Origin: a virus
Length of the DNA: 22,144 nt
IMG/VR virus record: IMGVR_UViG_3300045440_000255
Coordinates: 1 to 22,144 of that record
Reading direction: 5' to 3' (one strand)
Positions 4,749 to 18,952 of the stretch are shown here, piece after piece. The notes below the pieces were generated by a model, which was not told where the DNA came from, did not search any database, and saw only the letters and a program-made list of their open reading frames with translations. The translations under genes were made by a program, and so were the position numbers. Within the stretch, counting starts at the first letter, position 1. Every line of letters starts with the position of its first letter.

Positions 4749-4771
4749 TACGAGGATACGAAAGGGTAGTA

Positions 4772-4969: not shown

Positions 4970-4992
4970 TAGAAATAACAACGGAGAAACTT

Positions 4993-5244: not shown

Positions 5245-5504
5245 TGTGTGGATTTCTTCGTCGCCCCGGCGACTACACACAGACATCATCCAGTGGATAC
5301 ATGAGAGATGTGATTGTTGATTCGTCATTCTCGGGCGTCAAAGTCACATACAGCCATCCGCCAACAAGCAACACTTTGCCACTTGGTGCTCTACAAACTT
5401 ACATAAGCACGCACCTAGAAGAAATCGCGGCACTGGAACAAACGAATCCCGAACTGTACGCATTGTTATCGCAATTGACGTATGGTGACGGCGATGGATT
5501 TTAA
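5244..5504 (+). CDS. Hypothetical protein (86 residues)
   Basis: Begins at an ATG that overlaps the previous stop codon by one base. The N-terminus MCGFLRRPGDYTQTSSSGYM is polar; the C-terminal half (GALQTYISTHLEEIAALEQ..PELYALLSQL) is helical. It ends with YGDGDGF, a D-x-D-like acidic tail. No membrane segment and no recognised family. Confidence 0.6.
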   Translation: MCGFLRRPGDYTQTSSSGYMRDVIVDSSFSGVKVTYSHPPTSNTLPLGALQTYISTHLEEIAALEQTNPELYALLSQLTYGDGDGF

Positions 5505-5874
5505 TGCAATGAGTGGAGCGATGGAGCGAGCAATACGTCATAGGGCGGAAAACCAGCCATTTGATGTTCAAATTATGGCTCTATACCCCCACAAATTTTC
5601 TATTGGCGAGATACAAGAATCGTTTACTCGTGTTGTTAATGAAAACGTACAGCAAAAATCACTTCTGCGTTCTGCGCTTCCAGAAATCATGACGCAGATG
5701 TCGGAAGAACTGTATTGCGCTGATTGGCTTATTAGTCTTGATAGAGTACTTCCAAAATCATGTCCTTTAGTACATGATATGGCTATTGTTCTCGGTGAAA
5801 TACCTACGAGGTATTTTCCACGAGAATGGCGAATGTATCCCGACGAGCATGATTTAAAAGACAATGAGAATTAG
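5494..5874 (+). CDS. Hypothetical protein (about 126 residues)
   Basis: The start is uncertain: ATG 5482, 5494 and 5509 are all in frame and none has a good ribosome binding site. 5494 gives an 11-nt overlap with the previous gene, consistent with coupling. The protein is mixed helical, with MERAIRHRAENQPFDVQ near the start and PTRYFPREWRMYPDEHDL near the end. There is no signal peptide. Function unknown. Confidence 0.6.
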   Translation: MDFNAMSGAMERAIRHRAENQPFDVQIMALYPHKFSIGEIQESFTRVVNENVQQKSLLRSALPEIMTQMSEELYCADWLISLDRVLPKSCPLVHDMAIVLGEIPTRYFPREWRMYPDEHDLKDNEN

Positions 5875-5949
5875 CACTATAAACATTATGGACACACGAG
5901 AAATTGGTGTTTGCTATTTCCTTGAAGAGGAAGAATACGGAGTTAAAAT

Positions 5950-6177
5950 ATGGAAATGGATGATACTGATTTCGCTCACAGACAAGAAACCGAGATTCTT
6001 AAAACGCAGATACAACAAATCCGTGCGGAACTTGCAAGACGTACTGCGGAAACTACAGTCATCATCACAGACTTCCCAGCAGGGAGTTTGGGAGCAAGAT
6101 TCGGAAGCATAGGTCAACGCTTCAATCAGAAAAAAGTGGCAACTAGCAGGGACGATGTTGCTAAACCGAAAGAATGA
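5950..6177 (+). CDS. Small coiled-coil hypothetical protein (75 residues)
   Basis: Preferred over the overlapping frame 5864-6112. This frame has GGAG 8 nt before its ATG and a convincing amphipathic helix (ETEILKTQIQQIRAELARR, about residues 13-31), while the other frame gives a Ser/Gln-rich, unprotein-like C-terminus. The second half (DFPAGSLGARFGSIGQRF) is glycine-rich. The roughly 75 bp between 5875 and 5949 hold no well-supported gene. Function unknown. Confidence 0.5.
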   Translation: MEMDDTDFAHRQETEILKTQIQQIRAELARRTAETTVIITDFPAGSLGARFGSIGQRFNQKKVATSRDDVAKPKE

Positions 6178-6193
6178 TGCTACGTTCAGAGTT

Positions 6194-6427
6194 ATGACAA
6201 ACACACTCATCAAGGCAGTCGCAGCAAACATCATTGTTTCAACAGTTATCGGTACCGCACTCTGGGTAGCGATTGACGTTGCTTCTTTTTACACAGAAAA
6301 CGAATTCACTGGAAAAATGAAAGCATACGATGCACATTTAATCAATTGCATCGGTGCAGCACTAGTTATGGTTGTGGCAACAACAATTTGCAAAATCGCA
6401 ACAAAGGCGCTAGACTCTAAGAACTAA
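6194..6427 (+). CDS. Small two-helix membrane protein
   Basis: A 77-residue protein from ATG 6194 with hydrophobic segments at about residues 8-28 (AVAANIIVSTVIGTALWVAI) and 48-65 (INCIGAALVMVVATTIC), separated by an acidic/polar loop and ending in a lysine-containing tail. An in-frame ATG at 6155 would overlap the previous gene. Neither start has a clear ribosome binding site. Size and topology match small phage membrane proteins such as holins, but no endolysin lies nearby, so the role stays open. Confidence 0.6.
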   Translation: MTNTLIKAVAANIIVSTVIGTALWVAIDVASFYTENEFTGKMKAYDAHLINCIGAALVMVVATTICKIATKALDSKN

Positions 6428-6444
6428 ACAATTAGTGAGGATAA

Positions 6445-6726
6445 ATGTTAGACATTAAAAATTTCGGACCGTGTTTTGTTGCGGTCTCACACTCAAAGCC
6501 AACGTACTCAGAAGACTACTGCTACGGTCCTTTCATGACTGGCATTGAAGCCATCGCATGGATGGACGCTCAGTTCCTTGAAGAGTTCCGCGGAGACTTC
6601 CATGTCGTACAATTGCGCACTCCATCACGTACGCGAACACACGACGACTGGTGGTTGTCAGACGAACATCAAAAACCAGAATTTTTTAACCTTGAATACC
6701 CCGAATACTCGGGCGCAGACTATTAA
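6445..6726 (+). CDS. Hypothetical acidic protein (93 residues)
   Basis: Good ribosome binding site (GTGAGGA) before ATG 6445. It is rich in aromatic and acidic residues (MTGIEAIAWMDAQFLEEFRG and a C-terminal FFNLEYPEYSGADY). The sequence looks like a compact soluble domain. It belongs to the tightly packed run of small genes from 4617. No family recognised. Confidence 0.7.
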   Translation: MLDIKNFGPCFVAVSHSKPTYSEDYCYGPFMTGIEAIAWMDAQFLEEFRGDFHVVQLRTPSRTRTHDDWWLSDEHQKPEFFNLEYPEYSGADY

Positions 6727-6750
6727 AACAACTAAACGATGGGAACAAAT

Positions 6751-7107
6751 ATGACTTCATTTCAAACACGAGTTCTTCAAGCCATGCATGACGGCATGAT
6801 TGAAGGTGACGGGCACACAATTTTTTCGCCCCAATACTACGCACCCCACTTCAGCGAAGAAGAACTTCGTGACGCAGGGCTAATCCAAAACTTCCGCTCC
6901 GACCTTTCCGACCACAAAGGAACAATCTTTGGGAATGACGGAATTGTGCGTGAAGAACTTAAAGACAGCGTGTACAACCTTGATTTTCTTTATTGGGTGC
7001 GTAACGAACTCGGCATTGACGAACCAGTCACCATGATTGGGCGAGGCTCGCAAGCACAACAAATTGTTGGTCAAATTAGACGGGTTGTTTTCCCTCCATC
7101 TGTATAA
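6751..7107 (+). CDS. Hypothetical protein (118 residues)
   Basis: Two in-frame ATGs lie 12 nt apart. The second (6751) has GGGA at a proper distance and is preferred; the first (6739) would add MGTN. The N-terminal helix MTSFQTRVLQAMHDGMIEGDG resembles a short helical domain, followed by an acidic middle (FSEEELRDAGLIQNF) and a C-terminus ending in QAQQIVGQIRRVVFPPSV. No catalytic motif is recognised. Confidence 0.65.
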   Translation: MTSFQTRVLQAMHDGMIEGDGHTIFSPQYYAPHFSEEELRDAGLIQNFRSDLSDHKGTIFGNDGIVREELKDSVYNLDFLYWVRNELGIDEPVTMIGRGSQAQQIVGQIRRVVFPPSV

Positions 7108-7134
7108 TCAACTGCGAAAAGCATCGGGGAAAAT

Positions 7135-7578
7135 GTGGCAGTCAATAAAAAACAGGCACCACAACAAGAGATTCTATCCATTGAGCGAACGGGCTCTTGG
7201 GGCAAAGTAGAATACCGCCATCGTTTAGTGTGCGGTCATACGGAAGTTCGCAAACGACCCAGTTCAGCACCCAAAATTGCTTGCGCCCTATGCGTCATCG
7301 CAAAAGAAAAAGGCGTTGAACTTCAAGCACTTTCAAACACCAAACGCCCTGAGTATGTGCCGCTCCCTGACGTTCACGACATTTTTGTGGATGAAACTAT
7401 TGAGGCGGAGATTTACGCTCAAAAACTGCAAGGTGCACTTTCGTCTGCACTAGGGTGTCCTCCTGATGCGATTGATGTTGTGATGTATGTTGATGACAAC
7501 GGAGATGTATCAATACAGTATGTTCAAGTTTTTCTTGATTTACATACAGCAAAGAAAATATCACGACTTGACATATGA
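7135..7578 (+). CDS. Zinc-knuckle hypothetical protein (147 residues)
   Basis: Starts at GTG 7135, 5-8 nt after GGGGAAAA. In the first half a C-G-H motif (LVCGHTEVRKR, about residues 32-42) and a later C-x2-C (CALC, about 50-53) make a zinc-ribbon-like pair joined by a basic loop. The C-terminal half (AEIYAQKLQGALSSALGCPPDAIDVVMYVDDNGDVSIQYVQV) looks like an alpha/beta domain. The TTGACA of the next promoter lies in its last codons. Function unknown. Confidence 0.7.
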   Translation: MAVNKKQAPQQEILSIERTGSWGKVEYRHRLVCGHTEVRKRPSSAPKIACALCVIAKEKGVELQALSNTKRPEYVPLPDVHDIFVDETIEAEIYAQKLQGALSSALGCPPDAIDVVMYVDDNGDVSIQYVQVFLDLHTAKKISRLDI

Positions 7579-7596
7579 GCAAAAGGATGATAGGCT
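7568..7596 (+). promoter_or_regulatory. Promoter for the winged-helix gene
   Basis: TTGACA (7568-7573) inside the end of the preceding gene, 17-nt spacer, TAGGCT (7591-7596). It lies 33 nt before ATG 7630. The -10 matches only weakly. Confidence 0.45.
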
Positions 7597-7629
7597 GTCA
7601 ACAGACTATTACTAAACCTAGAAGGATTT

Positions 7630-8103
7630 ATGAAAACACCGATACCTATTACAGAAGCCAATCTCCAATACAAAGAGGCGGTCAAGGCACTCATTGAAGA
7701 ATACGGAGATGCATCTCACATTCCGAAAGAACTGTTGTTTCTCATTGGCGAAGAAGCCCGATTCCACTACTGTGTGGATACGCAATCCACTTGGACTCTG
7801 ACCGAAGTGGTTCGCTACTACTCAATTGACAAGCGCGTAGCAGCACTCTTTATCGGTGAGGACAAAGCAACCTCAGCACCAGAGCGCAAACAAAAACGAA
7901 GCGATAAATACTCTGCGATTTTCAACTATGTTGATGAGCATGTATTTGAGCAAGTGACGCCAGCGCAAATTGCAGAAATCGGAAGCGTGTCGCACTCTAC
8001 TGCACTGAAAGTTATTGAATCGCGCCCAGACATTTTTCGTAAAATCAAACGAGGACTGTACGAACTACGTGATGCTCAAGCAGATAGAAAAGCACAAAAA
8101 TAA
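7630..8103 (+). CDS. Winged-helix DNA-binding protein
   Basis: A 157-residue protein; AAGGA before the ATG supports the start. Residues about 93-147 (KYSAIFNYVDEHVFEQVT, then PAQIAEIGSVSHSTALKVIE, then IFRKIKRGLYELRD) form a helix / helix-turn-helix / wing pattern typical of winged-helix DNA-binding domains. The N-terminal 80 residues are alpha-helical and unassigned, perhaps for dimerisation. A basic linker (PERKQKRSDK) joins the two parts. It has its own promoter and sits just before the replication block, so it may regulate that block; this is an inference. Confidence 0.7.
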   Translation: MKTPIPITEANLQYKEAVKALIEEYGDASHIPKELLFLIGEEARFHYCVDTQSTWTLTEVVRYYSIDKRVAALFIGEDKATSAPERKQKRSDKYSAIFNYVDEHVFEQVTPAQIAEIGSVSHSTALKVIESRPDIFRKIKRGLYELRDAQADRKAQK

Positions 8104-8110
8104 TTTCAAT

Positions 8111-8140
8111 TTGAATATTGACACACCCCCTTGGTAGTAT
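8111..8140 (+). promoter_or_regulatory. Candidate promoter for the whiB-thyX-replication block
   Basis: TTGAAT (8111-8116), 18 nt, TAGTAT (8135-8140), located 30 nt before the TTG start of the WhiB gene. A perfect TTGACA at 8119-8124 is also present, but it has no -10 at the usual distance. Confidence 0.45.
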
Positions 8141-8170
8141 CGTGCGAGACAAGAACGACGAGGGGGCAAA

Positions 8171-8491
8171 TTGGAAACAACAACACCGCAAGGTGCATGC
8201 AAAGGATTCCCAACACATTGGTGGTTCCCTGAAATCAACAACAGAGAAACCAAAGTCAATGTTTTGAAAGCAGTAGATATATGCAAGTCGTGTCAACTTG
8301 TCAAACAGTGCTTGGATTACGCATTACGAAACGAGACACACGGCGTATGGGGCGGGATGAAAGAAGTGGAGCGCGAAATTTATAGACGCAAATGTGGCAT
8401 CATGCTCACCCCAGAAGCGAACTCCAGTCAAAGCAATTCAACACGCCGTATACGCCGACGAATGAAGAAAGAAGAAGCAAATGCAGAATGA
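8171..8491 (+). CDS. WhiB-family iron-sulfur transcription regulator
   Basis: A 106-residue protein with the four cysteines of a WhiB [4Fe-4S] site: Cys10, Cys38, Cys41 and Cys47 (C ... C-x2-C-x5-C), followed by the G-V-W-G-G turn (residues 58-62) that packs on the primary sigma factor. The C-terminus is very basic (RRIRRRMKK), as in WhiB DNA-binding tails. WhiB proteins occur in Actinobacteria and their phages. In mycobacteriophage TM4 a WhiB homologue blocks the host WhiB2 and septation and gives superinfection exclusion, so this protein may redirect host transcription. TTG start with GAGGGG 5 nt upstream. It overlaps thyX by 11 nt. Confidence 0.9.
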   Translation: METTTPQGACKGFPTHWWFPEINNRETKVNVLKAVDICKSCQLVKQCLDYALRNETHGVWGGMKEVEREIYRRKCGIMLTPEANSSQSNSTRRIRRRMKKEEANAE

Positions 8492-9173
8492 GTACTTTGA
8501 TATTCATGGTGGCTTCATCCGTTTAGACGGATACATGGCAGACGACCTAAGTGTTGTCAACTCCGCCCGTGTCTCATTCGGACAAGAAACAGAAGAAATG
8601 CGCGATAAAGACATCGGTCTCATCAACTACCTCATGCGCTACAAGCATGGGACACCGTTTGAACACAACTCATTTCGTTTCCACGTTAAATGCCCAATCT
8701 TTGTTGCAAGGGAATGGTTCAGGCATCGCATTGGCTCATTCAACGAATTCTCGGCAAGATACACAGAAATGCCGAATACGTTCTATACGCCGAAAGCGGA
8801 ATCAATACGTCAGCAAACTGGCAAACAAGGGAACTATGAATACACACCAATCTTTGAAACACGCGAAAGAGACGCCAAAGCAGCACAACTCGCAATCACA
8901 GAAGCCAACGCCCGCGCATACTCCACGTATCTATATCTCATCCAGTTGGGTGTTGCAAAAGAACAGGCTCGTCTTGTCCTACCAGTTAACATCTACACCG
9001 AGTTCTACTGGACTGTAAACGCTCGCTCACTGATGAACTTTCTTGAATTACGAACTAGTCCTACGGCACAAGAGGAAATTCGGGAATATGCAGTTGCGGC
9101 AGAAAAAATGTTTCAAGAAGTTATGCCCGAGACATACAAAGCATGGACAGTGAACGGACGCATTTGTCCGTGA
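8481..9173 (+). CDS. thyX: Flavin-dependent thymidylate synthase ThyX
   Basis: A 230-residue protein of normal ThyX length. It carries the ThyX signature RHRIGSFNEFSARY (residues 81-94), in which the RHR and the S-x-R bind FAD/dUMP; CPIFVAREWFRHR precedes it, and QARLVLPVNIYTEFYWTVN and ARSLMNFLELR near the C-terminus complete the active-site pattern. It makes dTMP from dUMP with methylenetetrahydrofolate and FAD, supplying thymidine for phage DNA. It overlaps the WhiB gene by 11 nt and the next gene by 4 nt (GTGA), so all three are probably translated from one mRNA. Confidence 0.95.
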   Translation: MQNEYFDIHGGFIRLDGYMADDLSVVNSARVSFGQETEEMRDKDIGLINYLMRYKHGTPFEHNSFRFHVKCPIFVAREWFRHRIGSFNEFSARYTEMPNTFYTPKAESIRQQTGKQGNYEYTPIFETRERDAKAAQLAITEANARAYSTYLYLIQLGVAKEQARLVLPVNIYTEFYWTVNARSLMNFLELRTSPTAQEEIREYAVAAEKMFQEVMPETYKAWTVNGRICP

Positions 9174-10924
9174 GTAACCGTTCAGCATCACCAGAAGTAG
9201 AATCATTTTTAGCACGCCTAAACGGTGTGCGCGACAACGGTTCTAACTGGTCTGCTCGTTGCCCATGTCGCAATGATGACTCAAACCCATCGCTCTCCAT
9301 AGGTCAAGGAACCGATGGACGAGTTCTCATAACTTGCCATCGTGGAAGTGGATGTTCAGTGGACGAGATTTGTGAAGCAATGAACGTACAGAAAAGTTCA
9401 CTGTTCCCAAAGTCAACTCAGGTTGAAAAACCTAAACGGGAAAAGTTAACACTCATTGCGACTTACAATTATCGTGATGCAGACGGAACATTATTATTCC
9501 AAAAGCAGCGTCTCGTAAACGAGGAAGGTAGAAAAACTTTCCGACAACGCAGACCCAATCCAGATACTGGTGAATGGATATTCAACCTCGGGGAAATTCC
9601 AAAAGTTCTATACAGGCTCCCAGAGATTTTGGTCGCCAAACAAAAAGGCGAAATCATATGGCTCGTAGAGGGAGAAAAAGATGCAGATAACCTTGTTGCT
9701 CTTGGTCTCTGCGCAACCACACCGCCAAACGGTGCAGGCAAATGGCAAGACATTCACACAGAAGCCCTCGCAGGCGCGAACGTATTCATAATTTCAGACA
9801 GAGACGATGTAGGCAAAGAACACGTTGCCTTAGTTAGCGCCCAACTTGAAGCAGCAGGATGCACGGTCGCCTCATTCATTCCGCCCCACGGTCACAAAGA
9901 CGTAAGCGACATGTTGGAGGCTGGGTTAGGTGTAGATGACCTACTTGAGTTTGACGAACCAGCACAGCCAGAACTTGAAGAACATCCACAACAAGAACAA
10001 ATTCCTTTAGAAGTCAAAGACGAATCTGCTTCTGAGATATTGCGCGGAATGGAATCAATCTTTTCCCGAGACGACATCTCGTTAGAACAAAAACTAAACC
10101 GCGCATCGCTGCTACTCAACTCCACGAACCGTCAAGAAATTAGCGACAAGGGACGACTTGTTGTTTGGCAGGATTTTCTAGATGAAGTTGAAAACGATAG
10201 TTACGACTGGGTCATTCCTCAACTTATTGAAAAAGGTGAGCGCGTCATTGTCGTAGCAGCGGAAGGTGTTGGTAAAACAATGCTGGCAAGACAGGTTGGA
10301 TTATGTGCATCAGCAGGTCTACATCCCTTCACAATGTCAAAAATGACCCCTATTCGTACCTTGACAGTTGACCTTGAAAACCCTGAGCGAATTATTCGTC
10401 GTACATCAAAAAACATCATGAGCGCCGCCCTCCACTACGGGCACACGCGCAAAACTGAAGCACATCTACTTATTAAGCCAGCAGGTCTTGACCTATTGAA
10501 GCAGTCAGACAGAGCAATTCTGGAAGAAGCAATTGAAAAAACTAAGCCACAATTGCTCATCATGGGTCCGCTTTACAAATCTTTCGTTGACCCCGGCGGA
10601 CGAACTAGCGAAAGTATCGCTATTGAAGTAGCCAAATATCTGGACACAATCCGCGAAGTTTACGGATGCGCTATGTGGCTAGAACACCACGCTCCCCTCG
10701 GTTCATCTATTGGCGGTCGGGATTTGCGCCCATTTGGTTCTGCTGTATGGTCACGCTGGCCAGAATTTGGTCTATCATTGACACCAGACCCGACTTCAAC
10801 GGAAGGTTACGTATACGACGTAAAGCACTTCCGTGGTGCTCGTGATTTAAGACAATTCCCAACCAAGATGAAAAGAGGAAAAATTTTTCCTTTTGAAGTG
10901 TTGGAATTTATGAAAGTTGACTGA
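9170..10924 (+). CDS. Primase-like TOPRIM / RecA-like ATPase fusion (replicative primase-helicase type)
   Basis: About 584 residues if started at GTG 9170 (4-nt overlap with thyX); ATG 9143 would add 9. Residues below count from 9143. Cys40, Cys42, Cys65 and Cys71 make a CHC2-like zinc site with D-x-NPSLSI between them. A TOPRIM domain follows: LVEGEKDADNL (Glu176, Glu178) and IISDRDDVG (Asp219, Asp221). After an acidic linker comes a RecA-type ATPase: Walker A AAEGVGKT (372-379), DLENPERI, Walker B LLIMGP (471-476) and LEHHAP (513-518). This resembles phage and plasmid proteins that unite primase-type zinc/TOPRIM domains with a RepA-like helicase. No classical DnaB motif H4 was identified, so the helicase role is probable, not certain. 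Confidence 0.85.
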   Translation: MSNRSASPEVESFLARLNGVRDNGSNWSARCPCRNDDSNPSLSIGQGTDGRVLITCHRGSGCSVDEICEAMNVQKSSLFPKSTQVEKPKREKLTLIATYNYRDADGTLLFQKQRLVNEEGRKTFRQRRPNPDTGEWIFNLGEIPKVLYRLPEILVAKQKGEIIWLVEGEKDADNLVALGLCATTPPNGAGKWQDIHTEALAGANVFIISDRDDVGKEHVALVSAQLEAAGCTVASFIPPHGHKDVSDMLEAGLGVDDLLEFDEPAQPELEEHPQQEQIPLEVKDESASEILRGMESIFSRDDISLEQKLNRASLLLNSTNRQEISDKGRLVVWQDFLDEVENDSYDWVIPQLIEKGERVIVVAAEGVGKTMLARQVGLCASAGLHPFTMSKMTPIRTLTVDLENPERIIRRTSKNIMSAALHYGHTRKTEAHLLIKPAGLDLLKQSDRAILEEAIEKTKPQLLIMGPLYKSFVDPGGRTSESIAIEVAKYLDTIREVYGCAMWLEHHAPLGSSIGGRDLRPFGSAVWSRWPEFGLSLTPDPTSTEGYVYDVKHFRGARDLRQFPTKMKRGKIFPFEVLEFMKVD

Positions 10925-11565
10925 TGAACACCTCACAACAGGGGCTAAATAAAGAATTTTTAGCCGAGCGCGATTTACGTATCTTTAAGATGCGCCAAAG
11001 CGGTATCCAGCAAGCGGAAATAGCACGTCGCTTCAACATGACGCCTTCCGCTGTAGGGAACGCAATTCGCCGTCAATTGCAAAAGATGAACAGCGAAGCA
11101 CTTATGGCTTACCCTGAAGTCCTTCGCATGGAACTTGAAAGACTAGACGCTTTGCAATCCGCAATCTGGCCACTCACACAACACCGTCGCGTGAAAATGG
11201 ATGATGGGACAGAAGTTGCTGTTGAACCTGACATGAAAGCGGTTCAAACCGCTCTGTCCATTATGGATAGGCGCTCAAAATTACTTGGCATGGAACAGAA
11301 CAACGTCAACATCCAGATGGATATATCTGGCGGAACAAACCCTGTGCGAGCATCGCTTGCTGGGGTAGAACGCCCAGCAGCACTCAATGCTTTCAACCCA
11401 GAGGAAGAGGTAAAGAAATTGCTTCAAATCATGGGCGATTCAGGAGTTCTTCCTGAGGATACAATAAATCAGTTGTTGGGTAGAACTACGCAAAATCAGC
11501 GTATGCTACAAGCGGCGGAAGACGATGATATGCCCATTGATGCGGAGGTAATTGAAAATGAGTAA
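10924..11565 (+). CDS. Helix-turn-helix protein, small-terminase-like features
   Basis: A 213-residue protein starting at an ATG that overlaps the previous stop by one base (TGATG). The N-terminal domain (about residues 18-55: RIFKMRQSGIQQAEIARRFN, then MTPSAVGNAIRRQLQ) is a homeodomain/sigma-region-4-like helix-turn-helix. The centre contains RRSKLLG (116-122), a motif I associate with phage terminase small subunits, preceded by long helices. The acidic C-terminus is probably disordered. It may be a small terminase subunit or a replication regulator. The absence of a large terminase in the window keeps this open. Confidence 0.7.
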   Translation: MNTSQQGLNKEFLAERDLRIFKMRQSGIQQAEIARRFNMTPSAVGNAIRRQLQKMNSEALMAYPEVLRMELERLDALQSAIWPLTQHRRVKMDDGTEVAVEPDMKAVQTALSIMDRRSKLLGMEQNNVNIQMDISGGTNPVRASLAGVERPAALNAFNPEEEVKKLLQIMGDSGVLPEDTINQLLGRTTQNQRMLQAAEDDDMPIDAEVIENE

Positions 11566-11914
11566 AGAAGAAATTGACAATGTTGAAGCAGCAATGGAAA
11601 AAGTGGCAGAAACCCTTGATTTAACTCGGTCAACAAATACTGGGTCAAAGCAAGGTGAACCCGCAGCGAAGCAAGTGCTCGTCCGTGCCAGCGAGGCAGA
11701 CCATCAACGATGGAAAGACGCAGCAGAAAAGAACGGCGTCTCAATGTCGGAATTTGTGCGCGAATGCTGTAACGCTGCCGCAAACGAAACGCTTGATTGC
11801 CAGCACCCAGTTGAAATGACCAGATTTTACCCTTGGGGAAAAACATGTCTCAAGTGTGGGTACAAAGATTTTACCGAAAAAGCAAAGTCGTATCGCCGTA
11901 GCAATACTCAATAA
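11558..11914 (+). CDS. Ribbon-helix-helix protein with C-terminal zinc ribbon
   Basis: 118 residues from ATG 11558, chosen because GGAGGT lies 8 nt upstream. Residues about 38-77 (KQVLVRASEADHQRWKDAAE, then KNGVSMSEFVRECCN) match a CopG/Arc-type ribbon-helix-helix: one strand, helix, turn, helix. Then Cys81, His83, Cys97 and Cys100 (CQHP ... CLKC) form a putative zinc ribbon. The N-terminal 30 residues are acidic and helical. The stop is 2 nt before the HNH gene. A DNA-binding regulator or nuclease partner is likely from the fold; its target is unknown. Confidence 0.75.
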   Translation: MSKEEIDNVEAAMEKVAETLDLTRSTNTGSKQGEPAAKQVLVRASEADHQRWKDAAEKNGVSMSEFVRECCNAAANETLDCQHPVEMTRFYPWGKTCLKCGYKDFTEKAKSYRRSNTQ

Positions 11915-11916
11915 CG

Positions 11917-12216
11917 ATGCGTTACCGCTCTCCTAAAAAAGAGGCTGAATATCGTCTGCGTCGCCCGCTAGTTGCACGCCTCCTTGAAGAACGCCCATTG
12001 TGTGAAGCATGCCCAGTATTTGCTGTGCACGATGAGAAAACAACATATCGCAGAAACGCCTCCGTAGATGTTCACGAGTTGATTCGGCGCTCACAGGGTG
12101 GTTCTATTTTGGATGAAGAGAACCTTATGTGCGTCTGCAGACCATGCCACACGCGCATAGGCAATAACCCACAGTTAGCATTTGACCTTGGTCTTGCTAA
12201 ACATTCGTGGGAGTAA
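11917..12216 (+). CDS. HNH endonuclease
   Basis: A 99-residue protein typical of compact phage HNH nucleases. The zinc site is Cys29/Cys32 (LCEAC) with Cys74/Cys77 (VCRPC). The HNH residues are His53 (SVDVHELI), Asn69 (DEENL) and His78 (PCHTR). Such enzymes nick or cut DNA, and in many phages they help packaging or homing. It starts 2 nt after the previous stop with no clear ribosome binding site, so translation is probably coupled. It ends 46 nt before the RuvC-like gene. Confidence 0.85.
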   Translation: MRYRSPKKEAEYRLRRPLVARLLEERPLCEACPVFAVHDEKTTYRRNASVDVHELIRRSQGGSILDEENLMCVCRPCHTRIGNNPQLAFDLGLAKHSWE

Positions 12217-12262
12217 CTTCACTTCACTACCGCGATACGAATAGAAGTGTTAGATTTCATGG

Positions 12263-12802
12263 ATGAACATTCTTGGAATTGACCTGTCCTTAACATCTAC
12301 TGGAATATCCGTAAATGGCGAAACTGGAACAATCACCACACAAGCAAAAGGTGCAGAACGCCTATCAATTATTTCACTTGCAATATTGGATGCAATAATT
12401 GATAACAGTATAGAGATTGTTGCTATTGAAGGTTATTCTTTTGCATCGCGTAATAGCCAAGCATTCAGTATTGGTGAACTCGGAGGAGTCGTTCGCACGC
12501 GCTTATGGGAACGCAATATTCCATACGTTGACATTCCCCCAACTTGTCGCGCAAAGTTTGCTACAGGCAGAGGGAACGCAGCGAAAACAGAAGTGATGTC
12601 ATCAATCTCTGCTAAAACTGGAATTATTTTTTCTGGCAAAGGCGCAGACGACATGTGCGACGCATGGATTCTGGAAGAGATGTGCAGAACCGTCATTGGT
12701 GTTTCTGAATACGAATGGTCTGCTACACAATTATCAGCCCTTGACAAAATAGACTGGGAACCGCTAGTATCCCTACACAACAATAAGGAGAACCGTGCGT
12801 AA
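12263..12802 (+). CDS. RuvC-like Holliday junction resolvase
   Basis: A 179-residue protein of the usual RuvC size. It begins MNILGIDLSLTSTGISVNG (Asp7 first catalytic), then IVAIEGYSF (Glu56 second), then GKGADDMCDAW (Asp130 and Asp133, the acidic pair that completes the site). The order and spacing match RuvC-type nucleases of phages, which resolve branched DNA before packaging. An overlapping short frame at 12259 is out of phase. It overlaps the next gene by 8 nt. Confidence 0.88.
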   Translation: MNILGIDLSLTSTGISVNGETGTITTQAKGAERLSIISLAILDAIIDNSIEIVAIEGYSFASRNSQAFSIGELGGVVRTRLWERNIPYVDIPPTCRAKFATGRGNAAKTEVMSSISAKTGIIFSGKGADDMCDAWILEEMCRTVIGVSEYEWSATQLSALDKIDWEPLVSLHNNKENRA

Positions 12803-13136
12803 TAAACCTATTAGCCAAGTTGATATTGAAAATGAACTGGTTCGCCTCATGGACATGCTTGAGGAAGAAACCGAAGCATTTGAAACTTTGGCAGTGGACT
12901 GCGCTAAAAAAGAGGCTTTATACAAATCCAATTGGGCAAAAGAGTATCTTTCAGCGAAAGGCTCAATTCGCGAGCGCGAAGCATGGTCGGATTACAAACT
13001 TTCAGACGAATCATACGACTACAAAATCGCTGAAGCATTAGTTAAATCTAAGCGTGAAAAATTAACATCTTTAAGAACGTCAATTGACGCACTACGCACG
13101 CTCAACGCAAACGTACGTACACAAGTATCAATGTAA
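12795..13136 (+). CDS. Coiled-coil hypothetical protein (113 residues)
   Basis: GTG start with AAGGAG 4 nt upstream, overlapping the end of the RuvC-like gene. It is strongly helical and charged (LVRLMDMLEEETEAFETLAVDC, then YKIAEALVKSKREKLTSLRTSID), resembling the helical accessory proteins often found next to recombination genes in actinophages. No enzyme motif. Function unknown; a recombination/replication role is a guess based on context. Confidence 0.65.
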   Translation: MRNKPISQVDIENELVRLMDMLEEETEAFETLAVDCAKKEALYKSNWAKEYLSAKGSIREREAWSDYKLSDESYDYKIAEALVKSKREKLTSLRTSIDALRTLNANVRTQVSM

Positions 13137-13145
13137 GCAGGAAAA

Positions 13146-13949
13146 ATGAACCACAAGATTCATGAATCAATCGTATCCTTAGCCCGCCCACTAGATGATT
13201 TAGTTCACCTACAAGGCAACCCAAGAATAGGAAACATTGACTCTATTGCAGCGTCATACTCCGAATTTGGGCAAGTACGACCAATCGTTGTACGACCAAA
13301 CTCAGATGGAACAGCAACAGTTATTGCAGGCAACCACCAACTAGAAGCAGCACGTCGCCTCGGATGGACACACATCGCTGTCGTGGAAATGGACGCAGAC
13401 GATTCGCGCGCAATGGCATTCGCACTAGCAGACAACCGCACGAACGAACTAGGGCATACAGACGACAATCTGCTTCACGCAGCAATGGAATACATTATTG
13501 AAGACTACGGAGACCTTCTAGAAGACCTCGGCTGGGACGAATTTGAACTCGCAATGCTTGACCTAGATATGGAACGCGGCGAACTTGCTACACCAGGCGT
13601 CTACGAACAACCAATACTGCGAGACATAGACGAAATAGCAGAATCAACAACATCTCTCCCTTCGTACAACTCGCCACAAAACATTGTTACGACACGGGAA
13701 GAAAACGGTGACGTAACAATCAACGCCGCGCAAGGCACAGACATCAAAACAGCAATCACACAAGGTTCAGGTGCAGTAGGCGCAGGCGGGAACAGTAAAT
13801 CAATCGTTCAATACACCCTCGTATTTGACGATGCAGCACAACAACGCAAATGGTACGACTTCTTACGCTGGCTACGAAGCGACACAGCGGTCGCTGGTGA
13901 AACAACAGCCGAAAAACTTATTGACTTTATTGAACAACACACACCATAG
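13146..13949 (+). CDS. ParB-like N-terminal domain protein
   Basis: 267 residues. The N-terminal ~100 residues carry the ParB/sulfiredoxin-fold core: NPRIGNIDSIAASYSEFGQ (25-43), GQVRPIVVR (42-50), GTATVIAGNHQLEAAR (55-70; the GNHQ replaces the usual G-x-R-R) and ALADNRTNELG (93-103). The middle is acidic and the C-terminus contains a Gly/Ser-rich stretch (about 205-220) followed by a compact domain. No ParA or centromere-like repeats are visible. Phage ParB-like proteins of this type can be nucleases or nucleotide-binding regulators. The Arg loss in the signature means CTP binding should not be assumed. AGGAAAA precedes the ATG. Confidence 0.8.
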   Translation: MNHKIHESIVSLARPLDDLVHLQGNPRIGNIDSIAASYSEFGQVRPIVVRPNSDGTATVIAGNHQLEAARRLGWTHIAVVEMDADDSRAMAFALADNRTNELGHTDDNLLHAAMEYIIEDYGDLLEDLGWDEFELAMLDLDMERGELATPGVYEQPILRDIDEIAESTTSLPSYNSPQNIVTTREENGDVTINAAQGTDIKTAITQGSGAVGAGGNSKSIVQYTLVFDDAAQQRKWYDFLRWLRSDTAVAGETTAEKLIDFIEQHTP

Positions 13950-13957
13950 GAGAAACT

Positions 13958-14239
13958 ATGCCTACACGCGAACAAATAGATTCGGCATTCAAAGCAATGG
14001 ACGAATCAATCCTATTAATGGACGGATTTGATGAAGCATTCATCGGATTCACACGCCCAATGAACCAGCCGACACTCGCTGTTTACTCACACAAAAAAAT
14101 GATAGACACTCTAATGTTTCGTGACGGAATGAATTACGACGACGCAGAAGAATACATTGAATTCAACTGCATCGGTGCATACATCGGCGAGCAAACACCA
14201 ATCATTGTCTTTGATGTTGATGGACCATACTTTGCATAA
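13958..14239 (+). CDS. Conserved small phage protein (93 residues), function unknown
   Basis: Good ribosome binding site (TAGGAGAAACT) before ATG 13958. The sequence MDGFDEAFIGFTRPMNQPTLAVYS, DGMNYDDAEEYIEF, GAYIGEQTPIIV is familiar from many phage genomes as an uncharacterised family of about 90 residues (recognised from memory). It is acidic and soluble. It ends in ...FDVDGPYFA. The -35 of the CoA-transferase promoter (14217) lies in its last codons. Confidence 0.75.
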   Translation: MPTREQIDSAFKAMDESILLMDGFDEAFIGFTRPMNQPTLAVYSHKKMIDTLMFRDGMNYDDAEEYIEFNCIGAYIGEQTPIIVFDVDGPYFA

Positions 14240-14245
14240 TATAGT
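14217..14245 (+). promoter_or_regulatory. Promoter of the CoA-transferase gene
   Basis: TTGATG (14217-14222), 17 nt, TATAGT (14240-14245). Transcription would begin about 14251-14253, leaving a leader of only 12-14 nt before ATG 14265, without a Shine-Dalgarno sequence. Confidence 0.6.
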
Positions 14246-14264
14246 AATAAAATATCCACCACTC

Positions 14265-15410
14265 ATGGGGATAAAAATAGTTGACATGTCAACAATGATT
14301 GCTGGTCCGCTAGGTGCAAGCCTCCTCGCCGACTACGGTGCCGAAGTAATCAAAATAGAACCCAAAAACTCATGTGACCTCATGCGATTCGTTGGCTCAA
14401 ACAAAAACGGCATGTCAGGCATCTTCGCCCTAAACAACCGAGGCAAAAAAGGAATAGCCGTAAACGCCAAAGGCGTCAAAGGTCGCGAAGTAGTAGAAAA
14501 ATTGATATGCGCCGCAGACGTACTCATACACAACTTTCGCCCAGAAGTAATGGAATCGCTCGGATTTGGATACGACCAAATCAAAGAAAAATTCCCAAAC
14601 CTCATCTACGTCCACGTTTTAGGATTCGGAAACTTCGGACCGCTCAAAAACAATAAAGCGTACGACAACATGATTCAAGCAATGACTGGCATGGGCAACG
14701 CACAAAACGACCCGCCAGAAGTAGTACACCAACTCGTATGTGACAAAGTCACAGCGCACGTCGTAGCCCAATCAGTGCTCGGTGCACTATTCGCACGAGA
14801 GCGCGGGCTGTGTGGCGGACAGTACATTTCCATATCCATGCTTGATGTTGCAGCCCACTTCATGTGGCAAGACCTCGGCATGGATGCAGCACTACTAGAC
14901 GAAGACACCGTCAGGTCGCCGACAATAGACAAGTACTACCGCACCATCACACTCAAAGATGGATACTGCGCCGTAACCCCAGCAACAGACGAAGAGTTTG
15001 AAATATGGGCACAGACATTACGCATACCAGAGATACTCCAAGACGAACGCTTCAGTTCAATCGGGGCACGATTCAACAACGCCCCAGCACTCATTGAAAT
15101 CACAGACAAAGCCGCAAAACAACTGACAGTCGCAGAAGTACAAGCAGCCATCAACAACGGTCTACCAGCAGCAATTTTTGCTGACATTAAAGACCTACCA
15201 AACAATGAACAAATTAAAACAAATGCAGTTTTCATTGACCGAACACACCCAAGCGCAAACTTGATGATTAGAGAAGCACGACAAGCACCGATGTTCTCAG
15301 AAACACCACTCACAACAAGCCAACACGCACCGATGCATGGCGAACACACAGGAGAAATACTAGACTCGCTCGGATATTGGGCACCACTAGCAGAGGAAAT
15401 AACAAGATGA
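14265..15410 (+). CDS. CaiB/BaiF family III CoA-transferase
   Basis: A 381-residue protein (family members are usually about 380-420). The N-terminus GIKIVDMSTMIAGPLGASLLADYGAEVIKIEP is the classic family start. VLIHNFRPEVMESLGFGYDQ, FGNFGPLKNNKAYDNMIQAM and ALFARERGLCGGQYISISMLD follow in the right order. Asp160 in LVCDKVTAH matches the catalytic aspartate that forms the aspartyl-CoA/anhydride intermediate in formyl-CoA transferase. The family moves CoA between organic acids (formyl/oxalyl, carnitine, succinyl/benzylsuccinate and others); the substrate here is unknown. Start 14265 fits the promoter; in-frame ATG 14220 would be inside the previous gene and upstream of the transcription start. 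It overlaps the next gene by 4 nt. Such enzymes are unusual in phages. Confidence 0.88.
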   Translation: MGIKIVDMSTMIAGPLGASLLADYGAEVIKIEPKNSCDLMRFVGSNKNGMSGIFALNNRGKKGIAVNAKGVKGREVVEKLICAADVLIHNFRPEVMESLGFGYDQIKEKFPNLIYVHVLGFGNFGPLKNNKAYDNMIQAMTGMGNAQNDPPEVVHQLVCDKVTAHVVAQSVLGALFARERGLCGGQYISISMLDVAAHFMWQDLGMDAALLDEDTVRSPTIDKYYRTITLKDGYCAVTPATDEEFEIWAQTLRIPEILQDERFSSIGARFNNAPALIEITDKAAKQLTVAEVQAAINNGLPAAIFADIKDLPNNEQIKTNAVFIDRTHPSANLMIREARQAPMFSETPLTTSQHAPMHGEHTGEILDSLGYWAPLAEEITR

Positions 15411-15748
15411 ACACACCAATCAAGCGTTACGGCACAACACAACCAAACATTGAAACGGTCGCAACAACATTTTTGAGCAAAATCATTGGTGCCGTCAAAA
15501 CGATGTCATCCAAGTCATACTGGAACCGCGTAAACACCGTAGAAGCATGGGGATTCGCAACCAAAATTGCAATCATATTCCCTGGCTTACTATTTGGAAA
15601 ACAATGGTGGTGGCTATACATCTTCGCAATCGCATCAAGCATCAGCCTCATCTGGACATCAACCAAAAAAACGCTACCAACAATCATCCTCTTTAACGTC
15701 CTATGGATAGTTCTAGCGTCAGCGTCCATTATCAAACACTTCATCTGA
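15407..15748 (+). CDS. Membrane protein, about three helices
   Basis: 113 residues from ATG 15407, which overlaps the CoA-transferase stop (ATGA); GAGGAAAT supports it. Hydrophobic stretches at roughly residues 44-60 (ATKIAIIFPGLLFGKQ), 62-80 (WLYIFAIASSISLIW) and 88-110 (TIILFNVLWIVLASASIIK) suggest three membrane helices after a soluble N-terminus. The coupling to a CoA-transferase suggests transport or membrane anchoring, but nothing in the sequence proves this. Confidence 0.65.
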   Translation: MNTPIKRYGTTQPNIETVATTFLSKIIGAVKTMSSKSYWNRVNTVEAWGFATKIAIIFPGLLFGKQWWWLYIFAIASSISLIWTSTKKTLPTIILFNVLWIVLASASIIKHFI

Positions 15749-15749
15749 C

Positions 15750-16031
15750 ATGTGGTACGAACTCACAACAAACGGCGACTCAATATTCTGTTGCGAAAAA
15801 CATATAGAAATAGTTAGCCAATTTTGGCGCGAGCAAGAAGAATACAAAAAATACCCGCACAAATGCGTCATCATTCCACGTCTCATTAACGAACCACAAT
15901 GGTCATGCGGTGAATGCCAATACCAACAACTCATATACGACAACGAGCCAGTAGCCAAACTAGATTTGAGCAACATCAAAAAAAGCAAGTTCCGCAAAAA
16001 CATATCTTTCCACAACCCAGACAGTAAATAA
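15750..16031 (+). CDS. Cysteine/histidine hypothetical protein (93 residues)
   Basis: Starts one base after the previous stop. Cys14-Cys15-x2-His18 near the N-terminus (SIFCCEKHIEI) and C-x2-C at about residues 53-56 (WSCGECQY) suggest a zinc-binding fold. The rest is charged and helical, with a basic C-terminus (LDLSNIKKSKFRKN). Codons end mostly in A or C, as in the surrounding AC-rich stretch. Function unknown. Confidence 0.6.
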   Translation: MWYELTTNGDSIFCCEKHIEIVSQFWREQEEYKKYPHKCVIIPRLINEPQWSCGECQYQQLIYDNEPVAKLDLSNIKKSKFRKNISFHNPDSK

Positions 16032-16033
16032 AC

Positions 16034-16528
16034 GTGGCATATGACTACATACAAGCCTTCACAGACGGACACGCCTACAACCGTCGCGTAGCCGAATACC
16101 TACGCACCAGAGAAATCAAATGCCATGCGCCAGAACTACAAATAGCAAAAAACACAGCGGAACGCCGACACCTAACACTCACAGAAAAAGACATCGTCCT
16201 AGAAGGACTCACACACATACTAGAAGTCAAATCAAGTAGCAGAGAATTCACAGACGACCCAAACGACTTCCCCTACGACGACACAATCGTAGACACAGTG
16301 AGCAGTTTTGAAGACAAACTCCACAAACCCTGCGCATACATACTCGTCAGTAAAGTAACAGGCGCGATGGTAGCCATCGGAGTCTCATCACAACCGCGAT
16401 GGAAAAAGCGCACATTTTTTGACCGTAAACAGCAGTTAACAGACGACTTCTATCTAGTCAACAAAGAAGACATCCGTCATATGGATGACCTCGTTGAATA
16501 TCTACTAAAACTACAACGACGCGCTTAG
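16034..16528 (+). CDS. Candidate PD-(D/E)XK nuclease-fold protein
   Basis: 164 residues from GTG 16034, two bases after the previous stop. Asp53 (LTEKDIVLEG) and Glu64-Val65-Lys66 (HILEVKSSS) form the D ... E-x-K signature of the restriction-enzyme/resolvase nuclease fold, in the correct strand context (THILEVKS). Helices before and after (YNRRVAEYLRTREIKC; DDLVEYLLKLQ) fit the fold. It may be a phage exonuclease or a resolvase. The evidence is the short motif only. It ends 2 nt before the tRNA on the opposite strand. Confidence 0.6.
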   Translation: MAYDYIQAFTDGHAYNRRVAEYLRTREIKCHAPELQIAKNTAERRHLTLTEKDIVLEGLTHILEVKSSSREFTDDPNDFPYDDTIVDTVSSFEDKLHKPCAYILVSKVTGAMVAIGVSSQPRWKKRTFFDRKQQLTDDFYLVNKEDIRHMDDLVEYLLKLQRRA

Positions 16529-16530
16529 TG

Positions 16531-16604
16531 TCCGAATGGAGAGATTTGAACTCCCGACCTTGGCGTCCCAAACGCCCTGCGCTACCAAACTGCGCCACAT
16601 TCGG
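16531..16604 (-). tRNA. tRNA-Pro (anticodon TGG)
   Basis: The minus strand folds into a complete cloverleaf of 74 nt. Acceptor arms CCGAATG/CATTCGG (7 bp, perfect), discriminator A at 16531; D stem GCGC/GCGC with AGTTTGGTA loop; anticodon loop TTTGGGA (T33, TGG anticodon, G37 as usual in tRNA-Pro); T arm GGGAG-TTCAAAT-CTCTC. The anticodon stem has a mismatch at 27-43 (G-A). The 3' CCA is not encoded. It lies between two plus-strand genes, convergent with the candidate nuclease gene. It could supply a proline codon (CCA) that is frequent in this genome. Confidence 0.9.
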
Positions 16605-16704
16605 CTTTGTGAAAAGAATATCACACACAACAGCCCCCAGTTAGTTAAATTTAAACAGCACCAAGAGCGTTGAATATATTTAACCCCACCCATCAAGTAA
16701 ACCC

Positions 16705-16733
16705 TTGACAAACACAACTAGACACGATAAACT
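16705..16733 (+). promoter_or_regulatory. Strong promoter for a probably leaderless mRNA
   Basis: TTGACA (16705-16710), 17 nt, TAAACT (16728-16733). The next ATG (16742) begins 8 nt after the -10, about where transcription should start. There is no Shine-Dalgarno sequence, so translation is probably leaderless. Confidence 0.7.
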
Positions 16734-16741
16734 CAACAACC

Positions 16742-16921
16742 ATGAACCTAAACAACCCAGAAGAACTAGAAAAAGACCTCAACTTCCTCATCGTCAACGG
16801 ACTCGTAGAAAAAGTCATCGGCACCGACGGAGAAACCCGCTACAAAGCCACAGACAACACCAAACAACTCACCCCAGAACAACTCATAGAAATCGTCGCC
16901 AAAGGACTAGAAAACCAGTGA
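16742..16921 (+). CDS. 59-residue winged-helix-like mini protein
   Basis: ATG 16742 to TGA 16921. The middle (LNFLIVNGLVEKVIGTDGET, then RYKATDN) has the recognition-helix / beta-wing pattern of winged-helix regulators (L.xxGLV....G.DGE.RY..T). A C-terminal helix (TPEQLIEIVAKGLEN) follows. It is the first gene after the promoter at 16705 and overlaps the lipoprotein gene by GTGA, so the two are expected to be expressed together. A small transcription regulator is the best guess from the pattern. Confidence 0.6.
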   Translation: MNLNNPEELEKDLNFLIVNGLVEKVIGTDGETRYKATDNTKQLTPEQLIEIVAKGLENQ

Positions 16922-17274
16922 AAAAAATACTAAAAACCATCCCCCTACTCGCACTCATCGGCTGCACAACAACCCTAAGTAACCAAACCACAACCCTCAA
17001 ACCACTCCCAACAACAACCACAAACCCCTTCAAATACAGCGAATTCAACTACATAGACGACTTCTACTACCACTTCGGTAAACCAACCAAACAAGACGAA
17101 GACACACTCCTAGAACTCGCAGCACTATGGTGCCACGCCATCAAACTAGGAATGCAACCCACAGACATACAACAACGCATCAACGAAGGCTCAGCAGACC
17201 AAGAAGACGCAGAACTCAACGAAGCAATCGTAAAATCCGCGACCACCAACCTCTGCCCCTACACAACCAAGTAA
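16918..17274 (+). CDS. Lipoprotein, DUF732-like
   Basis: 118 residues from GTG 16918. The N-terminus KKILKTIPLLALIGC has positive charges, a short hydrophobic core and a lipobox L13-I14-G15-C16, so the mature protein should start at lipidated Cys16 and sit on the outer face of the membrane. A Thr-rich linker follows. The rest (an ALWC motif, EAIVKSATTNLCP) has two cysteines and helices that resemble the mycobacterial DUF732 family. Phage lipoproteins often block superinfection, which is a hypothesis here. Overlap with the upstream gene by GTGA and coding in the strongly AC-rich stretch support one transcription unit. Confidence 0.75.
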   Translation: MKKILKTIPLLALIGCTTTLSNQTTTLKPLPTTTTNPFKYSEFNYIDDFYYHFGKPTKQDEDTLLELAALWCHAIKLGMQPTDIQQRINEGSADQEDAELNEAIVKSATTNLCPYTTK

Positions 17275-17281
17275 CAACCAC

Positions 17282-17842
17282 ATGCTGGAAAACACAAACC
17301 GCTGGACATACCAACTCACCCTAGAAGAAGAAGCACTCTCCACACAAATAGGATGGGAACGCCAAAAACCCATGCTCGCACAACCCCACCGCAACATCAA
17401 CTACTTTGAAGGCGACGTCTGGGAAACACTCCAACACATGATATGCGTCGGAAGCGAAATAGCATTCGCCAGAATGATGGGACAAAACAACTTCACCCCA
17501 CACGTCAACAAATTCAAAAGCAAACTAGACCTCCCAGGATACGGCGAAATCAGATACGCATTCCCACAAGGATTCCCCAAAAACACAGGAGAACCAAAAG
17601 GCTTACGCATATCCGACCGAGACGACGACACACTCAAATACGCACTACTCGTCGGAGGACTAGCCCACAGAACACGAAGAAAACCACCAGACTGGCTAGG
17701 CGAACCATACAAAGCAATCGGATGGATGTACGGACACGAAGTCAAACAAGACAAATGGAAATACAACCACAACACATGGTACGCACCACCCAGCGAACTC
17801 CGAAAACTATTACCACAACAGTCGCTAGTGAAACAAATCTAA
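17282..17842 (+). CDS. PD-(D/E)XK-like conserved phage protein
   Basis: 186 residues starting 7 nt after the lipoprotein stop. Glu59 (GSEIAFARMMG), Asp83 (SKLDLPGYG) and Glu89-Ile90-Arg91 (GEIRYAF) resemble the E ... D ... (D/E)-x-K pattern with Lys replaced by Arg. Later, GLRISDRDDDTLKYALLVGG and KAIGWMYGHEVKQDKW match a family of phage proteins I recall as related nuclease-like proteins. Loss of the catalytic Lys may make it inactive or altered. Codons are almost all A/C-ending. The function is uncertain. Confidence 0.6.
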   Translation: MLENTNRWTYQLTLEEEALSTQIGWERQKPMLAQPHRNINYFEGDVWETLQHMICVGSEIAFARMMGQNNFTPHVNKFKSKLDLPGYGEIRYAFPQGFPKNTGEPKGLRISDRDDDTLKYALLVGGLAHRTRRKPPDWLGEPYKAIGWMYGHEVKQDKWKYNHNTWYAPPSELRKLLPQQSLVKQI

Positions 17843-17854
17843 ACAAAATGCCAG
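17815..17854 (+). repeat. Direct repeat copy 1 (with 18086-18125)
   Basis: 40 nt that match 18086-18125 at 31 positions, including an exact 15-mer ACAACAGTCGCTAGT at the left end. It overlaps the end of the 17282-17842 gene and the beginning of the next. Start-to-start distance is 271 nt. Confidence 0.75.
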
Positions 17855-18099
17855 TCACCAAATTTCATAACTGCAGCCACATACTAGAAAAACCAACAAG
17901 AAACGAGACACCCATGCCATACGGCTACTGGAACCAACTACCACCCGCAAACCACTACAACCTCAAACAACACAACCCCACCATACACAAAACAAAACAA
18001 CAAGAAACCACACTCAAAATCGTCGCCGCCATCACCACAATCTGCCTCATCACCTACACAACAACTCTCCTAATCCGAAAGAACTACAACAGTCGCTAG
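17848..18099 (+). CDS. Small protein with a C-terminal membrane helix
   Basis: 83 residues from ATG 17848; ATG 17914 would give 61. Neither has a strong ribosome binding site. The N-terminal part is rich in His, Asn, Gln, Pro and Thr; about 20 hydrophobic residues near the end (LKIVAAITTICLITYTTTLL) make a single membrane helix followed by RKNYNSR, so it is probably anchored with a short positive cytoplasmic tail. It lies exactly between two direct repeats, so it may have been duplicated or inserted as a unit. Composition follows the AC bias. Function unknown. Confidence 0.5.
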   Translation: MPVTKFHNCSHILEKPTRNETPMPYGYWNQLPPANHYNLKQHNPTIHKTKQQETTLKIVAAITTICLITYTTTLLIRKNYNSR

Positions 18100-18125
18100 T
18101 TGGATAAATCTAAATCAAGTTGCAG
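18086..18125 (+). repeat. Direct repeat copy 2 (with 17815-17854)
   Basis: Second copy of the 40-nt repeat; shares the 15-mer and a second core AAATCTAAA. It covers the end of the small membrane gene and leads into the non-coding origin-like region. Confidence 0.75.
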
Positions 18126-18244
18126 GACTCAAAAAATATAGTGTAGGCACGCCCGCTTATATGCCACCTCCCCGAATAAGTCAGCAGTCCCGTGTGTATT
18201 CCTCATTTCGTGCTCGCATTTTGTTTTTGACTTCTTTTATGTGC

Positions 18245-18296
18245 TCGTGTTTTTTTAGTTCATGCTTTTGAGTAGGTCGTGTTTTTTTAGTTCATG
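18245..18296 (+). repeat. Tandem 20-mer repeats (32-nt period)
   Basis: The exact 20-mer TCGTGTTTTTTTAGTTCATG occurs at 18245-18264 and 18277-18296. TGCTCG at 18211 and 18242 suggests a more degenerate copy about 31 nt earlier. They lie just before the DnaA boxes and may be iterons or regulator-binding sites. Confidence 0.7.
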
Positions 18297-18310
18297 TTTT
18301 TGTTGGGAAG

Positions 18311-18331
18311 TTATCCACAGGTTTATCCACA
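18311..18331 (+). promoter_or_regulatory. Two perfect DnaA boxes
   Basis: TTATCCACA at 18311-18319 and 18323-18331, same orientation, 12-nt spacing. Both equal the strongest DnaA-binding consensus. No other pair was noticed in the window. Confidence 0.75.
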
Positions 18332-18355
18332 TGACGAAGTTCACATATATATAAG

Positions 18356-18384
18356 TTGCTTTATATATCATGACCTGATATAGT
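18356..18384 (+). promoter_or_regulatory. Extended -10 promoter for the 18425 gene
   Basis: TTGCTT (18356-18361), 17 nt, TATAGT (18379-18384) preceded by TGA (extended -10). Transcription near 18391 would leave a leader of about 34 nt with AAAGG (18411-18415) before the ATG. Confidence 0.55.
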
Positions 18385-18424
18385 TATCTTTATAAGGAAG
18401 TAACTACTAGAAAGGTAGAAAGAA

Positions 18425-18724
18425 ATGGAATATCCACTAATAAGCGCAGTGTTAGGCTCAGCCTTTGAGAGTTGGGAATGGTACGAAGAAGTGACATTCG
18501 CAGAAGGATTTGACTGGGACATTCACCCATTAGATAAGAAGACAAAGTTTCTCACAATAGGGATAGAGGGCAAGACATACGAACTCTCAGTCAGCAACAT
18601 TATGACCGCTCTAGTGGCACAGTGTGGCAAGGGAGTCATATGGGAAGACGACCTAGACCTAGACGCTAGTGAAGGCGACAATGTCATACAGAGGGCAACA
18701 CTCAGAGAGATAGTGTTCGCATAA
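18425..18724 (+). CDS. Hypothetical acidic protein (99 residues)
   Basis: AAAGG lies upstream of the ATG. The protein is acidic with aromatic residues (AFESWEWYEEVTFAEGFDWDI) and a beta-rich centre (KFLTIGIEGKTYELSVSN). The C-terminal region (WEDDLDLDASEGDNVIQ) is strongly acidic. It is followed by a strong terminator, so it forms a single-gene unit. No family recognised. Confidence 0.7.
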   Translation: MEYPLISAVLGSAFESWEWYEEVTFAEGFDWDIHPLDKKTKFLTIGIEGKTYELSVSNIMTALVAQCGKGVIWEDDLDLDASEGDNVIQRATLREIVFA

Positions 18725-18740
18725 CAGAACAGAGAAGGAT

Positions 18741-18776
18741 AGGGGAGAGAGTAACATCTCTCCCCTGTTTTCGTTT
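18741..18776 (+). terminator. Intrinsic terminator after the 18425 gene
   Basis: Perfect 10-bp stem AGGGGAGAGA (18741-18750) with TCTCTCCCCT (18757-18766), 6-nt loop, followed by GTTTTCGTTTT. Confidence 0.9.
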
Positions 18777-18923
18777 TAGTGCTTACGGGTGCTCACGGGT
18801 ATATCTGTAGTACATCACTACATACACAGGTATACACATATACGCATACCTATACACACATACCCCATCTCACATAGTCATACGATATATACAATCAGGT
18901 ATAAAGATATGTCTCGTAAACAC
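18777..18923 (+). other. Non-coding spacer with short repeats
   Basis: No gene seen. It holds a CACGGGTA octamer (18794-18801), TA/AC-rich sequence and an inverted repeat AGGTAT (18828-18833) / ATACCT (18846-18851). It may contain operators for the promoter at 18924. Confidence 0.4.
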
Positions 18924-18952
18924 TTGACAATCATACACCCCCCTGATATACT
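18924..18952 (+). promoter_or_regulatory. Consensus extended -10 promoter, leaderless gene follows
   Basis: TTGACA (18924-18929), 17 nt, TATACT (18947-18952) with TG before it. ATG 18959 begins 6 nt after the -10, at the expected transcription start, and there is no Shine-Dalgarno sequence. Confidence 0.8.

Follow-up and report, generated by a model that had tools for sequence, protein, structure and literature searches.

The window analysed here is the entire 22,144-bp stretch of the virus record IMGVR_UViG_3300045440_000255, and its genes near the region of interest encode WhiB, ThyX, a primase/helicase, a RuvC-like resolvase and a ParB-domain protein. Because WhiB is among these neighbours we place the host in the actinobacteria, the gene pointing to a probable host within the Actinomycetota at no finer rank. 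The distant relatives of the helicase are mostly in phages of Gordonia, Microbacterium and Arthrobacter, and a megablast comparison of the window with cultured phages returned no match. Among the related virus records, G001 (107 kb) is 97% identical over window positions 1–16890 (16.9 kb) and belongs to the same species, but its contig ends at window 16890 and so does not reach the locus described below; G002 (IMGVR_UViG_3300042389_001027; about 128.5–128.6 kb) has a 127-bp terminal direct repeat, and its map is therefore complete and circular. An ORF at 14157–15410 in the window resembles CoA-transferase family III (CaiB/BaiF), and the related region of G002 has a Pfam match to the same family. 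From 15000 to 18250 the forward strand is strongly biased to A and C, a bias that stops at the leader, and an element CAACAGTCGCTAGT...AAATCTAAA, common to the related contig L452, is repeated at 17812–17843 and 18083–18115, close to the ends of two consecutive ORFs.

The locus itself consists of a noncoding leader and a 99-aa ORF (18425–18724, forward strand) with no match in Pfam or PHROG. The leader contains two exact copies of the DnaA-box consensus TTATCCACA, at 18311–18319 and 18323–18331, both on the same strand as the gene and separated by a 3-bp linker (GGT); the 12-nt distance given in the initial annotation is confirmed as a start-to-start spacing. To their left are two T-rich 26-mers on the forward strand (18245–18270 and 18277–18302; 25/26 identical, period 32 bp), so that the tandem repeats of the initial annotation are present although its 20-nt repeat unit is not. 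To their right is the AT-rich, palindromic region that it also described (18340–18399), with a short overlapping palindrome at 18343–18356; the best 60-mer, starting at 18347, is 77% AT, a level reached by 0.04% of the 60-mers in the window. Inside this stretch falls the likely promoter of the 99-aa ORF, a probable sigma70-type promoter on the forward strand, TTGCTT-17-TATAGT with an extended -10 TGA (18356–18384), recognised from the sequence and from alignment A1; its -35 element is weak and a simple promoter scan did not flag it. It is followed by a conserved 5' leader or ribosome-binding stretch AACTACTAGAAAGGTAGA (18402–18419, forward), the ORF, and an intrinsic terminator (18736–18771, forward), giving a one-gene cassette in the order boxes, promoter, ribosome-binding site, small ORF and terminator. 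Neither the promoter nor the terminator figured in the initial annotation. The box pair lies close upstream of the predicted promoter, with box centres at predicted positions -64 and -76 when the transcription start is taken from the -10 element only. Farther to the right (18924–18952), and in leaders of G001 and G002, a phage promoter recurs in which the conserved spacer ACACCCCxCTG precedes an extended -10; this spacer could mark phage promoters or serve as a site for a regulator.

A search for more DnaA boxes finds no exact copy of TTATCCACA in the window, which is the whole virus record, beyond the two in the pair. It could be argued that 9-mers recur randomly in 22 kb, and the eight copies present at up to one mismatch are indeed no more than expected. 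However, dinucleotide shuffles contain a mean of 0.17 exact copies each, none of 300 has a pair within 40 bp, and the analytic probability of an exact tandem pair within 40 bp in the window is about 2e-5; together with the retention of the footprint in relatives (see below), this makes a chance match a very improbable explanation. The two boxes together form a perfect 'double DnaA box', with tandem 9-mers, a linker within the 2–3 bp range, occurrence above chance, and conservation. In vivo, E. coli DnaA mainly binds double boxes with linkers of 2–3 bp, corresponding to spacings of 11–12 (PMC11317965).

Relatives with a syntenic leader are G002, L452 and L009, of which G002 and L452 are apparently one species, and the leader with boxes is known from two lineages only. 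The upstream part of the leader (window 18083–18203, forward) is 79–80% identical in L009 and G002. In all three relatives the sequence of the pair is TTGTCCACA-ggt-TTTTCCACA, at unchanged spacing, and both substituted boxes remain DnaA-box-like. The 22-bp footprint GTTATCCACAGGTTTATCCACA (18310–18331, forward) is matched at 20 of 22 positions in the L009 leader, the highest of all 22-mers in the block; those clear of the boxes have at most 16/22 matches and the rest of the block is unalignable. The question of whether related phages carry the boxes is thus answered in favour of the initial annotation. At the equivalent place the relatives have the promoter TTGACA-17-TATAGT, the AACTACTAGAAAGGTAGA stretch is identical in L009 and G002, and the terminator region (18741–18804) is conserved in both. 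The ORF between leader and terminator differs, with the window ORF replaced by one at 12964–13241 in L009, and we therefore regard this as a cassette with swappable cargo, in which the position of the boxes upstream of the promoter, the ribosome-binding site and the terminator are conserved while the ORF is exchanged. A homologue of the 99-aa ORF (87–88% identical) is present in L067 and L068 behind another leader that lacks boxes. The predicted box centres in L009 and G002 (-104 and -116) are farther from the promoter than those of the window, and the box–promoter geometry is therefore not fixed. By alignment, neither the T-rich repeats nor the AT-rich DUE-like stretch is present in the syntenic leaders of L009 and G002.

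Across 15 related records, some of them overlapping, there are 43 TTATCCACA sites compared with three for a reversed-letter control. Equivalent leaders of G001 and G002 hold a second site, with three boxes in the former (104.5 kb) and two in the latter (94.2 kb), and G003 has one box ahead of a homologue of the gene behind the G001 boxes. In these three genomes the boxes are directly upstream of promoters with the ACACCCCxCTG spacer, with box centres at predicted positions -42 and -54 in G001 and G002 and -46 in G003 (from the -10 only); the G001 second-site leader also contains the AACTACTAGAAAGGTAGA stretch. In G011, read by eye, box pairs adjoin leader promoters as well. A pair at an ORF start in G003 and G005 overlaps the last part of the preceding gene's coding sequence and was dropped as support. 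G002 also has dense clusters of mixed orientation at 100.37–100.49 and 101.68–101.80 kb, with the variants TTTTCCACA, TTGTCCACA and TTATTCACA, and no other origin-like structures were observed. SOS-box-like palindromes of the LexA-operator type, CGAAC-N4-GTTCG, form arrays at 101555–101637 and 99205–99232 in G002, where an array adjoins a dense DnaA-box cluster, and similar palindromes are present in L055 at 1044, 6996, 17284 and 17329.

The premise of the initial annotation that most tailed phages do not carry DnaA boxes is too strong. In IMG/VR, TTATCCACA pairs with linkers of 1–25 bp occur in at least 120 forward stretches, with 119 in the entire collection for the reversed-letter control, and the single arrangement TTATCCACAGGnTTATCCACA alone occurs in at least 120 stretches against a scaled control of about 0.3 (119/25/16; the contigs are not independent). 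Viral contigs are rich in tandem boxes, whose start-to-start spacings peak at 11–13, 20–22 and 31–34 bp, or one, two and three helical turns, with almost none at 14–17 bp. Such boxes are also present in cultured phages, among them a Streptomyces Samistivirus, a T5-like Salmonella phage, a Berlinvirus and an Arthrobacter phage; the T7-like Berlinvirus Shigella phage VB_Ship_A7 (L522) has four TTATCCACA copies at 22–135, in the first 135 bases. The window's 22-mer has exact copies in 67 bacterial genome stretches, many from Actinomycetota; dnaA-like motifs are found in 8 of the 67 (fetched stretches of up to 8 kb), and dnaB and nrdR genes lie in two of the small number of flanks inspected. Double DnaA boxes being widespread in viral contigs, the window site belongs to an already known kind, the double DnaA box at a promoter, to which it adds an example from uncultured phages of this family.

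The initial annotation read the region as origin-like and took the arrangement to suggest replication reliant on host DnaA, perhaps as a plasmid-like phage. Use of host DnaA is likely, given that the motif is of a DnaA-binding type and kept by relatives, and that 16 records yielded no DnaA C-terminal domain, by which a phage-encoded DnaA is rejected. As an origin of phage replication, or a part of one, the region would be bound at the pair by host DnaA, the AT-rich stretch would melt, and phage primase/helicase with host polymerase would start forks. The boxes do adjoin DNA that ranks with the AT-richest of the window, a local skew inflection lies near 18.25 kb (the window being a genome fragment), and the two dense mixed-orientation clusters in G002 are typical of origins. 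Moreover, a family-A DNA polymerase was not detected in G001, G002 or G011, nor was one listed in Pfam scans of the larger G002 ORFs (one list giving 25 of 26 families), which makes reliance on the host's replication proteins plausible. However, the equivalent site in G002 is an isolated pair at 119.05 kb, about 17–19 kb from the dense clusters, the AT-rich stretch houses a promoter, and neither it nor the T-rich repeats are conserved. The leader holds two boxes, even with one mismatch to TTWTNCACA allowed, where an origin would be expected to show a cluster of three or more. The G002 skew is inconsistent, with a raw GC minimum at 104.6 kb and a third-codon-position minimum at 84 kb; being confounded by gene strand, skew is weak evidence on the origin and was rejected as proof of one. 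P1, RK2 and pSC101 have DnaA-dependent plasmid origins, and these, like bacterial oriC, resemble the window in having DnaA boxes near AT-rich DNA, whereas the window lacks conserved initiator iterons, has two boxes only, and its DUE is not conserved. The inclusion of RK2 in this group is documented (PMC11317965). As a further difference, no ParA-type ATPase (AAA_31) was found in the three largest relatives, G001, G002 and G011, and the ParB-domain protein at window 13146 stands without a detected ParA; with no ParA in these relatives, a plasmid-like phage is without support. At the 18.3-kb spot the reading as an origin and a plasmid-like phage is thus not supported, and we consider it unlikely that this region is an origin, although the boxes may have some part in replication and DnaA may serve replication in this phage family given the origin-like clusters of G002.

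Two other roles for the boxes are less probable still. As a decoy, boxes on many phage copies would titrate host DnaA and halt host replication rounds in the manner of datA. The several G002 clusters, together with the SOS-box-like arrays, look as if host regulators were bound, but the two boxes here are few and a decoy would have no need of conserved placement beside promoters, which makes this improbable. It is slightly more doubtful again that the sites serve as operator to a regulator encoded by the phage and resemble DnaA boxes by coincidence. Such an operator would account for the repetition at several phage leaders with the linker GG in common, but the variants (TTATCCACA, TTTTCCACA, TTGTCCACA and TTATTCACA) track the DnaA consensus, pairs across unrelated viral contigs favour the helical-turn spacings given above, the linkers of 2–3 bp match those used by E. 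coli DnaA, and the exact 22-mer recurs in bacterial genomes, in some cases near dnaA-like motifs, dnaB or nrdR.

We therefore propose, with a probability of about one half, that the double box is bound by host DnaA and is a cis-regulatory site of the 18356–18384 promoter, such that phage transcription responds to host DnaA. Binding of the pair by host DnaA is itself likely. Bound at 18311–18331, DnaA would act in cis on the promoter, which would drive the one-gene cassette of 99-aa ORF and terminator, and cassette transcription would follow host DnaA, probably the level of DnaA-ATP, by analogy with nrdA, polA and purH of E. coli. Binding would then raise or lower transcription, as we infer, and the cassette gene is presumably an early gene. 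We favour promoter regulation over origin function on the grounds that what is conserved is the unit boxes–promoter–gene–terminator, that it recurs at a second promoter, and that the complete relative G002 has origin-like clusters elsewhere. Counting against regulation are the variable distance between boxes and promoter, the presence of this leader in two lineages only, and the dense clusters of G002. In addition, the double boxes in IMG/VR have no orientation preference toward the next gene, a pattern that fits origins or divergent promoters equally; co-orientation with downstream genes showed no bias and was set aside as a promoter test.

Transcription from lambda pR is stimulated by DnaA, and the lambda DnaA boxes are weak and downstream of the promoter. 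The window would be alike in having host DnaA at a phage promoter, but its boxes are perfect and upstream. The double boxes of E. coli, such as that of nrdA (TTATCCACAaagTTATGCACT), are also tandem 9-mers with a 2–3-bp linker upstream of a gene (PMC11317965), although there the genes are those of the host, whereas here a phage gene of unassigned function follows and both boxes are perfect. The injection stop signal region of T5-like phages is mentioned as carrying DnaA boxes (PMC13250531), and the T5-like record here has two TTATCCACA copies in a noncoding gap. The region resembles the window in having boxes in noncoding phage DNA with repeats, but it lies near the genome end and is linked to two-step DNA transfer, whereas the window site is an internal promoter leader.

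If the proposed regulation is correct, phage transcription is tied to host DnaA. Tandem pairs with the linkers preferred by E. coli DnaA are common among viral contigs, which makes host-DnaA control of phage promoters testable as a general idea. More tentatively, these uncultured large actinobacterial phages may place several early promoters under the host replication initiator, through double DnaA boxes in a number of leaders and dense clusters of boxes beside SOS-box-like arrays, so that early gene expression would follow the host's state of replication and damage.
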